DNA from: an uncultured Porphyromonadaceae bacterium
Lineage (GTDB): Bacteria; Bacteroidota; Bacteroidia; Bacteroidales; Muribaculaceae
Reading direction: 5' to 3'
Assembly (NCBI GenBank): GCA_947178165.1
Contig: CAMWXH010000012.1
Span: 1 to 43,633 of the forward strand
DNA length: 43,633 bases
A program made the translations under genes and the position numbers. Under the pieces are notes generated by a model, which was not told the origin of the DNA, searched no databases, and saw nothing but the letters and a program-made list of their open reading frames with translations. How positions within the stretch are numbered: position 1 is the first letter of the stretch; every line of letters begins with the position of its first letter. Below are positions 27,696-33,301 of this stretch, in pieces.

Positions 27696-27820
27696 CTCTG
27701 CGGTATCTGCGCCTCTGCGTGAGACCATATATTTTTTCTCCTGAGAGAAGTTGTCTTTATCCTAATCTCTTGCGAGATTTATTTTTTTCCTCACGCAGAG
27801 GCGCAGAGTACACAGAGGGC
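27696..27820. repeat. TIR element copy A
   Basis: CTCTGCGGTATCTGCGCCTCTGCGTGAGA .. aatctcttgcgagattt .. CCTCACGCAGAGGCGCAGAGTACACAGAGG. Confidence 0.85.
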
Positions 27821-27862
27821 GCTCGCGCTTGGATGAGATTTTACCTGAAGTGGTTGGAATGC

Positions 27863-28261
27863 TCATTGAATAGACAAATTATAATTATTGACTATTCTTT
27901 TTACACCATCAATGAGTTTATTTACATTAAAATTTATCAATAAACCCACTCTTTTATCTGTTAGGCGAAGATAAGTTTGCAATTGTTTATAAAATACATT
28001 ACTTACCTCTGCTACAGATTTTAATTCCACTATCACTTTATCATTAACTATTATATCCGCTTCATACCCTTTATCCAATTCAATACCCTTGTAATGAATA
28101 GTGATAGGCTGATGTGCTTGAATCTTCAGACCTTGTTCTTTTAATTCGTATTCCATGGCTGCTTGATATGCGCTTTCTAACAATCCTGGGCCAAGAATTT
28201 TATGAACCTCTATTGCTGATCCAATGATTCGTTTAGTTAATTCATCATGTGATAATTCCAT
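27863..28261 (-). CDS. GxxExxY protein (PDDEXK_3-like nuclease fold)
   Basis: 132 aa; IGSAIEVHKILGPGLLESAYQAAMEYELKEQGL (GxxExxY = GLLESAY), GYEADIIVNDKVIVELKSV, YKQLQTYLRLTDKRVGLLINFNV. Confidence 0.93.
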   Translation of the reverse strand: MELSHDELTKRIIGSAIEVHKILGPGLLESAYQAAMEYELKEQGLKIQAHQPITIHYKGIELDKGYEADIIVNDKVIVELKSVAEVSNVFYKQLQTYLRLTDKRVGLLINFNVNKLIDGVKRIVNNYNLSIQ

Positions 28262-28279
28262 CTTTTTATTATTTTTTCT

Positions 28280-28393
28280 CTCTGCGGTCTCTGCGCCTCT
28301 GCGTGAGACCCTTTTCTCGAAAGAGAAATTTTTATTTTTAATCTCTTGCGAGATTCATTTTTTTCCTCACGCAGAGGCGCAGAGATCGCGGAG
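28280..28393. repeat. TIR element copy B
   Basis: CTCTGCGGTCTCTGCGCCTCTGCGTGAG ... CTCACGCAGAGGCGCAGAGATCGCGGAG: 28-nt terminal inverted repeat with 2 mismatches. Confidence 0.9.
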
Positions 28394-28573
28394 GGCGTTC
28401 GCGCTTCGGAGAGGCTTCATCTCGTTTGAGTTTTTTTTATTTTCTCTCTGCGGTCTCTATATCATGAGAGCTGTGGATATAAAAAAGACCCTGAGAGTGA
28501 AGGAAAACGGTGATTGAGTTTTTATGGTTCTTAATTAATCTCTGCGTTTTTAACAAGTTAAGCCTTTTCTCCA

Positions 28574-29043: not shown

Positions 29044-30738
29044 TTATTCAAATTTTACGCCTTGAGAATAAACAGCCCAGTTAAGGATGTTAATTTTTGC
29101 ACCAAGATATGATTCATCAGGAGTACCAGGATCAAAAGATTCAGGTTTTTCAGGAATGATAGGCTTATCAGGATCAAAGATAGGAGTACCCATACCTGCT
29201 ACAGTCTGAAGGTCAAGATTGTAAACGTGGTTACGTACAACTCCGGCAACACCTACATCATCAGGTTTAATTTCTTTAAAGTAGTAGCATTTACCATCAG
29301 CCCATTTCTTAACCCAATATTTCATAGCTTTACCCTGGTAACCAGTTGCTGTCTTAAGGTAGTTATTAACTGTGGTCAAGTTTCCTTCTACTGGAGCAGT
29401 TGTTCCATCTGTGGGATTATATTTACCAATTGTGAGTCCAGTTACTAATTGAGCATATCCTCTATAAGAAGCTCTATTGGGAGTTGTATTATCACCAATA
29501 GCAGTTGGTGCGGCAGCGAAAGTTATATCGGCAGGCTCGATCTTTGTCCAACCTCCTTTACCATCAGATTTCAAATAGTTATCATCATAAAGCATATTGG
29601 CAATCTGAACCTTGATACCATTGGTTGCGCTTTCAGTATAGAACTTACCATTGAAGCCGAGTTCATAAAGTGTCAAACCTGTAGTAGAACCCTTCTTGCA
29701 AAGTTGAGCTGTAATAAGGACACAAGTATTCTGTCCGTTAGTGTTAAGGGTGTTTTCGTAGAGATAATAGGGATTTGATTTAGTTCCCTTGTTCATATTA
29801 AATCCAGTTACAATTGTATTGTAATCACGGTTCTTAAGTTTTCCAGAAAGACCATCTGCAGGAGTAGCCCAATGAGAACGGTATGTTTCGTGAGCAACGA
29901 AACCGGTTTTAAAGTTAGTAGGCCATGTATATGAAGTCTGATCCACATCTTTTACCAAATAAGTTTCTGTAGCTTCATTAGCCATCTCGATACCAGTAAC
30001 AACAACATCAAGTTCTGTATCTGAGCCATCAATTGAAGGCTTGAGGGCAGTTGCTTCAGGATCATATCCAAAAGAGTTCAAGAATGTCCAAGTAACTTTG
30101 GCAAGAACACGCTCTACATAAATATTCTGTGCGTTGGACTCAGCCTCTGACTGGGTGGGATATACTTTCCCTTTGAAAGAAGTGGTATATGTAGGCGTTT
30201 TACCAAAAGCAGAAGAAGACATTACAAAAGCTCCACTTGTTTGAGCTGCGAAGTTGTAATCCTTGGTATTGTTTGTATATGTCTCAACTTTTTTTCTTAC
30301 ACCGTCAATGTCAAGATTGGAAGTTTTACTTATAGTGAAGTCTCCTGGATTAAGGATACACATTACTTCACCAACAGTCTTTTGAGTCTCACCACTTTCA
30401 GCCTTTGGAATTGAAATTGAAACTGCAGTGGTAGAGGTTTTTGTGATGTCGTTAGTGCCGTTATCCCATTTTTTAGGTATGAAAGTAACAACATCCAACA
30501 CTTTTTTACTTGCATCATCGAACACAATAAGCATTGCATTGGTAACAGCACTCTCTGCATCTGTACCAATTTCATCTACAGTCGCACGTGTACCATCAGG
30601 AGTTGCCAGAGTAACACCGATGTAACCGATTTCGGCCGGGCCATTATTGATTTCAACCACCTGCGGCTCATCGTTGTTGGAGCAGCTTGCGAGAGTCATG
30701 GCTGCGCAAAGGGCTGCTAATCCATAAATCTTTTTCAT
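29044..30738 (-). CDS. Mfa1 family fimbrial major subunit-like lipoprotein (paralog 2)
   Basis: 564 aa; MKKIYGLAALCAAMTLASCSNNDEP lipobox; VERVLAKVTW; GVAGVVRNHVYNLDLQTVAGMGTPIFDP...AKINILNWAVYSQGVKFE C-terminal signature. Confidence 0.87.
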   Translation of the reverse strand: MKKIYGLAALCAAMTLASCSNNDEPQVVEINNGPAEIGYIGVTLATPDGTRATVDEIGTDAESAVTNAMLIVFDDASKKVLDVVTFIPKKWDNGTNDITKTSTTAVSISIPKAESGETQKTVGEVMCILNPGDFTISKTSNLDIDGVRKKVETYTNNTKDYNFAAQTSGAFVMSSSAFGKTPTYTTSFKGKVYPTQSEAESNAQNIYVERVLAKVTWTFLNSFGYDPEATALKPSIDGSDTELDVVVTGIEMANEATETYLVKDVDQTSYTWPTNFKTGFVAHETYRSHWATPADGLSGKLKNRDYNTIVTGFNMNKGTKSNPYYLYENTLNTNGQNTCVLITAQLCKKGSTTGLTLYELGFNGKFYTESATNGIKVQIANMLYDDNYLKSDGKGGWTKIEPADITFAAAPTAIGDNTTPNRASYRGYAQLVTGLTIGKYNPTDGTTAPVEGNLTTVNNYLKTATGYQGKAMKYWVKKWADGKCYYFKEIKPDDVGVAGVVRNHVYNLDLQTVAGMGTPIFDPDKPIIPEKPESFDPGTPDESYLGAKINILNWAVYSQGVKFE

Positions 30739-30825
30739 GTTAGAGTTTTTTGAGTTAAAAGTATGTTTATTTATATAATTTTTCTTTTTAATTATCTCGC
30801 GAAGAAAAGAAGTTAAGAAGTTTTT

Positions 30826-30947
30826 CTCTGCGGATCTCTGCGCCTCTGCGTGAGACCCTATCTATATATCTTTTCTCTATGGAGATACTTTTGTTAAATC
30901 TCTTGCGAGATTTGCGTTCCTCACGCAGAGGCGCAGAGATCGCGGAG
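30826..30947. repeat. TIR element copy C (solo)
   Basis: CTCTGCGGATCTCTGCGCCTCTGCGTGAG ... CTCACGCAGAGGCGCAGAGATCGCGGAG. Confidence 0.9.
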
Positions 30948-31095: not shown

Positions 31096-33099
31096 TTAAT
31101 AGTTATCCTGGCCATTGTTGAAGTCAACATCCTGGTGGTAAGAACCCCAAGAGAGGATGTGGATATCGCAAGCCATTTTCCAAGGCTCGTCCTTAGGATC
31201 AATGTGAGGAGGAGTTACAGGAACAATAATCTCTGTGGGATCAAATACTGGAACGCCAAGACCTACCATTGTTCTGAGAGTGAGGTCATAGATGTGGTTA
31301 CGAACTACACCATATTCTCCAACTTTCTCCATCACAACTTTATCACCATCCATTACATCATCACCATTTTCATCAGTAACTTTTCTTTCAAGTGCCTGAC
31401 CGGTGATAAGCTCTACGTAGTAATAGCATTTACCATTATTCCATCTCCAAACCTGATAATCGGGAGTCTGAAGGTGACCGTTAAATGTATCTTTAGTTAC
31501 ATCAGTAAAGTTTGTACCACCATCCACAGTTTTTACGATAGAGCGTTTTGTATAGTTAACTGCAGAAGTAAGCTGAAGATAGCCGTCGTAACCAAGATTG
31601 TTGGCTGAAACGAAGTCAACATCACCTACATTGATGCTTACATATTTGTAAGTAGCTGGTTTCTCACCTTCTGCCGGAGTCACTTCCTCTTTAACCATAT
31701 AACCTTCGCGCTGGAGAAGATCAAGAAGCACTTTCTTTGCAGACTCCATAGTATAGTACTCACCATTTCTAAGAACACGTACCAGATCTACAGTTTCATT
31801 TGTGCCATGCTTTACGAGTTCTGCAGAAACCACGAGAGCAGTTTTATTGCTGCCATTAGTGTTTTCGTTGATATAGTTATTCACAAACTTAGGCTGAGAA
31901 GAGGCACCTGAAGTAAAGGTGAAGGGAGTGAAGCCCACATTGTAAGAATGATTTACGAAATCAGAAGTGGTTTGTTCAGAAGATTTTCTTGAAGCATTCG
32001 CAGTAGCTGCTGTATTGAATGCCCAGTGTGAACGATGGAAGCCGGAAGCATTCCAATCCTTGAACGGATTTGTAGTGCTGAAAACACCAACTGTAGGAAC
32101 TGCAGCATCTGTACCCATATTCTTAACGAGATATGACTTCTTAGCCACGTTAGCAATTTCGATACCGGTTACCTTGATATCAAATTGGGTGAGCGCATAT
32201 TCATACAGGCCAGTTTTTTCATTATAAGTACCGATTTCAACAGCAGCACCTGTTTGAGCTTTGTTAGCATCTGTGGGGCTGACAACATAAGTGCTTACAA
32301 AGTTATCAGCAAAAGCAGCGTCAACACGTGATACCACACGCTCAACATAAATGCTTACTGGAGTCTCGGCAGCGTTAGCCGCATTATTCTTGATCTTGCT
32401 ATTACCATTTGCATCTAAGCAACTTGAAGTATAAACGAGTTTCTCGCTTCCGGCAGTTGTGTCGTCCCAATAAACAGAATTGGTCATCACGAACTTATTG
32501 ATGGAAGTAAGGTTGGTTGCGTAATCATTTACCACCTTAACAACATCATCGATAGTCTTAATCACTTTGTCATTCGTATCACCATCTTTAAGAGAGCCAT
32601 CCAAATAGTCATCAAGGTTACCGGGGTTGAGAACGGCAATCACCTGAGTGATTTTGTCAACCTTAGCTTTAATAGTGGCAGCATCATCCTCTTTTCTTTT
32701 ATTCTCGTCCGCATCTGTTGATGGAGTATAGTCAACTTTAACATCCACCATAACGTGATAGTCACGTTCTACATTTTCATAAGGTGTAGTGTTCGGATCA
32801 GGAGTAGTGGTTGCTGTGAGATCCACACTCTTTGAAATACCTACGAAGTTACCCTCAGCATCAAAATAGATGAAAGATGCTTTAGATGCCTTGCTCTCAG
32901 CTTCTGTACCATACACGAAGTTATCGTGGTCTGCACGAGTGCCTTTATTGGCGTTAGCGATGTTCACTGAAAGATAGCCACCTACAGCAGATGCAGTGCT
33001 GTCAACTGAGCTACCGGGAACGATGGGCTCATCGTTGTTGGAGCAGCTTGCCAGCGTCATGGCTGCGCAGAGGGCTGCAAATCCATAAATCTTTTTCAT
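31096..33099 (-). CDS. Mfa1 family fimbrial major subunit-like lipoprotein (paralog 1)
   Basis: 667 aa; MKKIYGFAALCAAMTLASCSNNDEP near-identical signal; VERVVSRVDAAFAD; YGVVRNHIYDLTLRTMVGLGVPVFDPTEIIVP...CDIHILSWGSYHQDVDF. Confidence 0.87.
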   Translation of the reverse strand: MKKIYGFAALCAAMTLASCSNNDEPIVPGSSVDSTASAVGGYLSVNIANANKGTRADHDNFVYGTEAESKASKASFIYFDAEGNFVGISKSVDLTATTTPDPNTTPYENVERDYHVMVDVKVDYTPSTDADENKRKEDDAATIKAKVDKITQVIAVLNPGNLDDYLDGSLKDGDTNDKVIKTIDDVVKVVNDYATNLTSINKFVMTNSVYWDDTTAGSEKLVYTSSCLDANGNSKIKNNAANAAETPVSIYVERVVSRVDAAFADNFVSTYVVSPTDANKAQTGAAVEIGTYNEKTGLYEYALTQFDIKVTGIEIANVAKKSYLVKNMGTDAAVPTVGVFSTTNPFKDWNASGFHRSHWAFNTAATANASRKSSEQTTSDFVNHSYNVGFTPFTFTSGASSQPKFVNNYINENTNGSNKTALVVSAELVKHGTNETVDLVRVLRNGEYYTMESAKKVLLDLLQREGYMVKEEVTPAEGEKPATYKYVSINVGDVDFVSANNLGYDGYLQLTSAVNYTKRSIVKTVDGGTNFTDVTKDTFNGHLQTPDYQVWRWNNGKCYYYVELITGQALERKVTDENGDDVMDGDKVVMEKVGEYGVVRNHIYDLTLRTMVGLGVPVFDPTEIIVPVTPPHIDPKDEPWKMACDIHILSWGSYHQDVDFNNGQDNY

Positions 33100-33189
33100 G
33101 TTAGAGTTTTTTGAGTTAAAAGTATGTGTTAATTAAAAAATTTTTTCTTTTTTATTCTCTCGCGAAGAAAAGAAATGAAGAAAGTTCTT

Positions 33190-33301
33190 CTCTGCGAATC
33201 TCTGCGCCTCTGCGTGAGACCCTTTTCTCGAGAGAGAAATTTTTTTTAATCTCTTGCGAGATTTATTTTTTTCCTCACGCAGAGGCGCAGAGAGCGCGGA
33301 G
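33190..33301. repeat. TIR element copy D (solo)
   Basis: CTCTGCGAATCTCTGCGCCTCTGCGTGAG ... CTCACGCAGAGGCGCAGAGAGCGCGGAG. Confidence 0.9.

Follow-up and report, generated by a model that had tools for sequence, protein, structure and literature searches.

Many GxxExxY genes of the Bacteroidota are bracketed by inverted arms built from short tandem words, and gene and arms behave as one piece at the sites compared. Comparisons of loci and genomes show the arms themselves, their bracketing of the gene, their specificity for it, the covariation of protein and word, and the presence, absence and swapping of the whole as a unit. On balance, we consider it somewhat more likely than not that GxxExxY is the coding part of an arm–gene–arm unit whose nuclease, with a predicted catalytic activity, acts on its own arms in a cut-and-anneal fashion.

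The window, by which we mean the whole stretch of 43,633 nucleotides that was analysed, carries a GxxExxY gene among the Mfa1- and Mfa2-like genes of a fimbrial locus (Table 1). A sequence-only reading of this DNA had described four elements with inverted arms, a GxxExxY gene between copies A and B, and a small internal palindrome. All four elements were found again, at most a base or two from where that reading placed them; the gene does lie between A and B, is intact and matches its family profiles above cut-off; and the palindrome AATCTCTTGCGAGATT is found inside all four copies. The elements span 112–125 bp and fold as single-stranded DNA into hairpins with z-scores of −6.7 (A), −9.9 (B), −9.3 (C) and −8.1 (D). 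These values, together with the genome-wide copies of the repeat core against none for a control pattern, argue that the elements did not arise by chance. A known RNA family was rejected as an identity for the hairpins, as only sub-threshold miRNA-type matches were obtained.

As pairs, the arms within elements A–D face the opposite way to those of what we regard as the canonical unit, the inner arm of A, the gene and the inner arm of B. The two inner arms, CTCACGCAGAGGCGCAGAGACCGCAGAG and CTCTGTGTACTCTGCGCCTCTGCGTGAG (z 7.9), lie 45 bp beyond the stop codon and 18 bp ahead of the start codon, and this layout matches that of the arm pairs around other GxxExxY genes. The partial arm fragment just past element B was recognised from a direct repeat family, D7 (28265–28292 and 28431–28458, 89%). 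A conserved GGGCGYTYGCGCTTSGGA-like tail is seen 3′ of elements A–D (e.g. 28394–28411), and arms at other places in the genome are followed by a related one. Two fimbrillin genes, with elements C and D upstream, begin with a 137-nt direct repeat (86%; window positions 30665–30801 and 33026–33162), which looks like a duplication of the gene starts.

Table 1. Repeat elements, gene and inferred unit in the window (positions count from the first nucleotide of the window).
Feature	Position	Strand	Description
Element A	27696..27820	+	arm 27696-27723, loop, inverted arm 27790-27817; arms 86% complementary
Element B	28280..28393	+	arm 28280-28307, loop, inverted arm 28366-28393; arms 93% complementary
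Element C	30826..30947	+	gene-less pair, between two Mfa1-like fimbrillin genes; arms 30833-30854/30920-30941, 22/22 complementary
Element D	33190..33301	+	gene-less pair, upstream of Mfa1-like fimbrillin gene; arms 33199-33218/33274-33293, 20/20 complementary
GxxExxY gene	27863..28261	-	intact, 132 aa; TIGR04256 and PF13366 matches
Inner arm - gene - inner arm (inferred canonical unit)	27790..28307	.	arms CTCACGCAGAGGCGCAGAGACCGCAGAG / CTCTGTGTACTCTGCGCCTCTGCGTGAG, z 7.9
Partial arm fragment CTCTCTGCGGTCTCT	28443..28458	+	just past element B

The 18-nt core of the window repeat, TCTGCGCCTCTGCGTGAG, occurs in 14 exact copies, both within hairpin pairs and as solitary arms, in the genome to which the window belongs (3.17 Mb, 184 contigs). 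With up to three mismatches allowed, 20 matches were found versus 0 for a reversed-pattern control. Among 59 genomes of the same family, the core was detected in two, G000 and G009; the latter holds 12 copies and has no GxxExxY gene in an assembly that is 85% complete. A scan of species genomes located the core in at least 11 other phyla, most commonly in Cyanobacteriota (51 of the 114 core-bearing stretches among the matches listed), with Bacteroidota, Planctomycetota, Verrucomicrobiota and others also represented. A GxxExxY gene was present in only one of these 114 listed stretches, 126 bp from the repeat copy, and no gene family beside the copies in other phyla was clearly enriched relative to a distant-gene control. 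Judged by G009 and by the 1 in 114 among the matches listed, the exact window repeat is not tied to GxxExxY, and we rejected it as a universal marker of the gene. Repeats just as abundant in genomes that lack GxxExxY had been named beforehand as evidence against the link. For the exact repeat this is partly what was found, in G009 and in the 114 stretches listed, cyanobacterial ones among them, and it is the class of repeat that carries the association instead.

We also considered whether the repeat favours PD-(D/E)XK genes generally, an idea that arose from Rpn-like, AAA-ATPase/PDDEXK_9 and AAA+DUF4143 genes near copies in the window genome and from Uma2/XisH genes near copies in other genomes. 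It was unsupported: bracketing of AAA-ATPase-like genes stayed at background, and Uma2 was counted 4 times against 3 among distant genes. AAA-ATPase_like genes (PF09820) number 26 in G000, compared with at most one in each of the other 98 genomes of the phylum that were searched.

The association with GxxExxY belongs to a superfamily of word arms and not to the window repeat alone. Our sample consisted of 91 Bacteroidota GxxExxY loci with flanks, mainly the best HMM matches, compared with small sets of S23 (n = 27) and RAYT (n = 26) genes. At least three 12-mers were common to the left and right 300-bp flanks of 37% of the GxxExxY genes (n = 91), versus 1.8% of the remaining genes at those loci; the same test returned 62% for RAYT genes, which served as a positive control, 15% for S23 and 4% for AAA-ATPase-like genes. 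When 150-bp flanks were aligned approximately, inverted arms at z > 4 were found at 58% of the 91 GxxExxY genes versus 2–3% of controls, which include 146 genes with matching intergenic gaps (p = 3e-23). The arms thus bracket GxxExxY strongly and specifically, and the expected enrichment of GxxExxY genes beside repeats holds at the level of the class. Inverted arms occur in 9 of the 15 loci from the window's own family. At the z > 4 threshold, detectable arms are absent from about 30–40% of GxxExxY genes.

The arms consist of tandem near-identical words, usually of the form xxxxG[C/T]G (CTTTGYG, CTCTGYG, ATCTGYG, CTCCGYG and CTTCGYG). Locus L246, for example, reads TTTTCACCGCAGAGACGCGGAGACGCAGAGA before and TCTCTGCGCCTCCGCGACTCTGCGGTAAAAA after the gene, and L204 reads TTTTAACACAGAGGCCGCAAAGGAGGCACAAAG and CTTTGTGCCTCCTTTGCGGCCTCTGTGTTAAAA. 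An inverted match was obtained at 67 loci; in these, the median distance from the stop codon to the downstream arm is 6 nt, and 0 is frequent, and the median from the upstream arm to the start codon is 27 nt, with many such arms ending only just ahead of it. Pairs of GYG words lie within 300 bp of 53 of the 91 GxxExxY genes (58%) and of 26 of 387 other genes (7%); none were found near the 27 S23 genes or the 26 RAYT genes. The gene is co-directional with both of its neighbours in 67 of 89 Bacteroidota loci. Genes of the S23 family (PF05635), which encode four-helix bundles, are bracketed by another word class, e.g. AAGTATCAAGATATGAGTATCAAGAT, as at L286, L303, L305 and L282; L286 and L303 apparently share one insertion site, with a respiratory-complex gene on either side.

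Repeat class and gene also go together across genomes. At least three copies of CTYTGYGNCTYTGYG (CTYTGYG pairs) occur in 40 of 198 Bacteroidota genomes, and 38 of these 40 carry GxxExxY, compared with 63 of the other 158 (p = 4e-11); a within-family permutation of this co-occurrence gave p = 0.005. For the repeat class, copy number therefore tracks GxxExxY presence, a test that the sequence-only reading had proposed. The sharing of words rises with protein identity, from 2% at 30–40% identity to 17% at 40–50%, 33% at 50–60% and 51% above 60% (Mantel p = 5e-4), where the Mantel test, like the concordance test reported below, removes shared ancestry incompletely. Roughly half of the sampled Bacteroidota genomes carry the gene, mostly with one copy of each GxxExxY type per genome. 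Paralogs within a genome are usually 34–69% identical, with one tandem pair at 99% in G150; the bursts of recent copies left by an active insertion sequence are therefore not seen.

GxxExxY genes occur in several phyla besides Bacteroidota. Among the few non-Bacteroidota loci examined, strong arms surround the gene in Gemmatirosa (Gemmatimonadota), the arm match in Treponema is short and not significant (z 1.5), and the Sphingomonas gene, located between fabD and fabG, is preceded by an arm of CTTCGCG type that has no inverted partner downstream. Strong arms are likewise found on Bacteroidota plasmid records, from Bernardetia and Bacteroides finegoldii. Relatives of GxxExxY were detected in 8 of 72,556 plasmid records, at 4 viral-contig loci and in 0 of 50,697 phage records, and on these counts a phage or plasmid gene was rejected as the identity of GxxExxY.

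Comparison of filled and empty orthologous sites revealed gene and arms present or absent together at two sites. Between a pair of ABC-transporter genes, arms–GxxExxY–arms fill gaps of 626–659 bp in G161, G240 and G267, while the same gap measures 2–97 bp, without the unit, in G281, G285, G153 and others. The second and more telling site, marked by miaB and a sigma-54-regulator gene, was compared in 29 genomes of one genus (g35), 11 of which are empty. From its gene content, this genus is presumably Flavobacterium. Three GxxExxY protein types (Q, L and N) are found at the miaB site. Every type has arms peculiar to it, the three kinds being GCCACAGATTAAAA..., GCCACGAATTTCACAAATTTACACGAATT... 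and AACCGCAAATTACACAAATTTCCGCAAATT..., and protein type and arm type are concordant in 13 of 13 measured loci (about 2e-5 under random labelling, which ignores relatedness). Types and empty alleles are mixed across a tree built from the flanking DNA, with 6 changes for the 6 rows of type L, 4 for the 4 of type Q and 4 for the 4 of type N (14 in total); L401 was counted as type L by its arms and a disrupted-looking gene and stands outside the 13-locus measurement. Sister rows whose flanks are about 91–96% identical differ in type (L393/L394 and L399/L402) or in occupancy (L390/L392).

A trace of an exchange is kept in L393, where a leftover downstream arm of type Q persists beyond a type-N unit; its sister L394 carries a type-Q unit. 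The leftover arm is a fossil of replacement. Concordant types, scattered alleles and this leftover arm together indicate that gene and arms move or are exchanged together. No clean boundary or target-site duplication was resolved in the comparison of filled and empty sites, the flanks of which hold other repeats, and swaps at a single site could be explained by ordinary homologous recombination between the flanking genes. Bracketing, co-occurrence and site comparison support well, at class level, the proposal that GxxExxY spreads with these repeats. In L411, L414, L415 and L395, the miaB site contains other small genes, some with flanking words of their own, and so it looks like a common landing place.

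The window protein matches the GxxExxY profile TIGR04256 with 142.9 bits (cut-off 35) and PF13366 (PDDEXK_3) with 137.1 bits (cut-off 22). In an alignment of 22 diverse members (A1), G26, E29, Y32, D69, E79, K81, Q93 and Y97 are invariant, and of these D69, E79, K81 and Q93 are the predicted PD-(D/E)XK catalytic residues. An AlphaFold2 model of the protein (pLDDT 93.5) has a fold that resembles the lambda-exonuclease/Cas4 nucleases. The nearest solved folds, obtained by a fold search with the model, are alkaline/lambda-type exonucleases and SSO0001, a Cas4 protein (3syy, 4ic1 and 1avq). This fold is of a DNA-end-processing type, which led us to propose a cut-and-anneal mechanism. A sequence search of the PDB with the GxxExxY protein returned no significant match. 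The window protein had no match among the PADLOC models, and two relatives matched Cas4 there at E 0.004–0.008. The protein did not match the Rpn family (PDDEXK_2 / transposase_31), giving only PF13366 at E 0.001, nor did the gene match the HUH tyrosine transposase (Y1_Tnp, PF01797), with hits to PF13366/TIGR04256 only.

In the unit we propose, an arm is roughly 20–50 bp long and holds two or three near-identical words, usually at 8–12 bp spacing; the arms often end outward in GGTTAA, GGTGAA or TGAG. GxxExxY, as a minimal lambda-exonuclease/Cas4-type PD-(D/E)XK nuclease, would recognise its own word arms and cut or resect at them. The exposed words could then pair with arms at other sites or with those of an incoming allele, and this annealing would copy the unit or replace the occupant, and would also keep the words alike within a unit. 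In intergenic positions the unit comes, goes and is swapped together with its arms, and gene-less arms are found singly or as hairpin pairs such as A–D. The sequence-only reading had supposed that GxxExxY proteins act on the repeats or spread with them. Action on the repeats is supported indirectly, by protein–word covariation and conserved catalytic residues; binding and cleavage of the arms by GxxExxY, and the annealing step, are inferred. That these features define a distinct class of self-directed mobile unit, with an arm-recognising minimal nuclease, spread and replacement by cut-and-anneal, and arm words co-evolving with the protein, is a tentative proposal to which we give slightly less than even chances.

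Genes of the RAYT/TnpA-REP type are known as REPtrons when flanked by REPs and as TIRtrons when flanked by long TIRs (PMC3733652, PMC8266576). The GxxExxY unit is like them in several ways: inverted repeats bracket a single small gene; repeats are also scattered on their own, frequently in inverted pairs (BIME-like); a gene type usually has one copy per genome; plasmids rarely carry it; and there is an apparent match between repeat and protein. It differs in its enzyme, a predicted PD-(D/E)XK nuclease whereas theirs is an HUH tyrosine transposase; in its arms, which are tandem words whereas a REP is a short palindrome tagged GTAG/CGTC, and no such tagged palindrome was present in the GxxExxY arm sequences read; and in changing occupancy and type at one orthologous site. 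The likeness to RAYT/REP systems suggested by the earlier reading therefore extends to a gene flanked by its own dispersed repeats, as GxxExxY is (RAYT control 62%), and stops at the HUH transposase and the tagged palindrome. The unit is TIRtron-like but fails the defining features tested, namely the HUH enzyme and the tagged palindromes.

With insertion sequences and MITEs, the unit shares terminal inverted repeats around a gene, here a candidate mobility gene, and gene-less short forms. Unlike insertion sequences, it belongs to no known transposase family and has few near-identical copies within a genome: multiple such copies were not found among GxxExxY pairs, which are 34–69% identical except for the tandem pair in G150. 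Like a free-standing homing endonuclease gene, GxxExxY is a nuclease gene that fills a given site in some related genomes and is lost or displaced there in others, but it lacks a known homing fold or context, and its word arms recur at unrelated sites. Rpn is a PD-(D/E)XK family that promotes RecA-independent recombination (PMC5350276) and for which a role in toxin–antitoxin systems or phage defence has been reported (PMC10327210). It shares with GxxExxY a fold family linked to recombination, and one Rpn-like (PDDEXK_2) gene of the window genome lies between two arms of like orientation (L024 952–1869, a single locus); Rpn differs in forming a separate subfamily, PDDEXK_2, and in being larger. 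Lambda exonuclease, RecE and Cas4 provide the nearest solved folds and the D, ExK and Q residues, but GxxExxY is far smaller (132 aa), is bracketed by repeats and has no phage or CRISPR context.

Several other explanations have to be weighed against a self-directed unit. The arms could be recombination-prone sequences spread by the host, the genes between them being swapped passively by homologous recombination while the nuclease serves elsewhere, for instance in phage defence or a toxin–antitoxin system. We regard this as unlikely, though deserving of serious attention. It agrees with arms that are widespread without the gene (G009 and other phyla), with S23 genes that are also bracketed, by other words (10 of 27 with inverted arms at z > 4), with the other genes at the miaB site in L411, L414, L415 and L395, and with the assignment of Rpn, another PD-(D/E)XK family, to phage defence (PMC10327210). 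However, GYG words flank GxxExxY but no sampled S23 or RAYT gene, protein type and word covary, the window protein has no PADLOC match, and a relative is carried by 0 phage and 8 plasmid records, as counted above. Homing, in which a free-standing nuclease cuts an empty or differently occupied allele, repair copies the unit and the arms are protected divergent edges, appears improbable. While it would account for the repeated occupation and replacement of one orthologous site without clean duplications, and accords with the mostly single copies of each type per genome and the modelled nuclease fold, it leaves unexplained the tandem-word arms, the recurrence of the same word class at unrelated sites and phyla, and the many gene-less copies.

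A RAYT/TnpA-REP tyrosine transposase might process the arms in trans, with GxxExxY merely residing in repeat-rich intergenic regions. RAYT genes are indeed bracketed by repeats (62% by shared 12-mers), and the window genome has two weak Y1_Tnp matches. Yet GYG words occur at 0 of 26 RAYT loci, whose flanks are classic palindromes, e.g. GGGCTAAAGCCCG; G009, with its 12 repeat copies, has no Y1_Tnp match; and the two Y1_Tnp loci of the window genome do not lie near the repeat copies. These observations disfavour ownership of the arms by RAYT and make this explanation very unlikely. We give hardly any credence to arms arising neutrally, from slippage or terminators in long intergenic gaps and independently of the gene. 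In favour of this are the shortness and tandem order of the words, and the lack of any preferred gene next to gene-less copies in other phyla (Uma2, 4 vs 3 in controls). Against it, gap-matched controls stay at 3–5%, S23 and RAYT genes are without GYG words, and slippage would not be expected to pair the arms in inverted fashion across the gene, to place them at the stop codon or to make them covary with the protein.

GxxExxY is a widespread and unexplained family of small proteins, seldom named in the open-access literature, where we found no prior description of a GxxExxY–repeat unit or of the repeat sequences. The link between gene and repeat offers a candidate substrate for GxxExxY, and accounts for some members of a large class of intergenic repeats, those of the CTCTGCG/CTCTGTG/CTTTGTG kind. 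If the arm–gene–arm unit does operate by cut-and-anneal, the same scheme would apply to other small gene families, such as S23, which has word arms of its own. The partnership also suggests that gene–repeat alliances of the RAYT/REP kind evolved on more than one occasion and with enzymes that are unrelated. The long-standing question of what such nucleases do and how the repeats spread has become directly testable, the materials being a protein of 132 aa and an arm of 30 bp.
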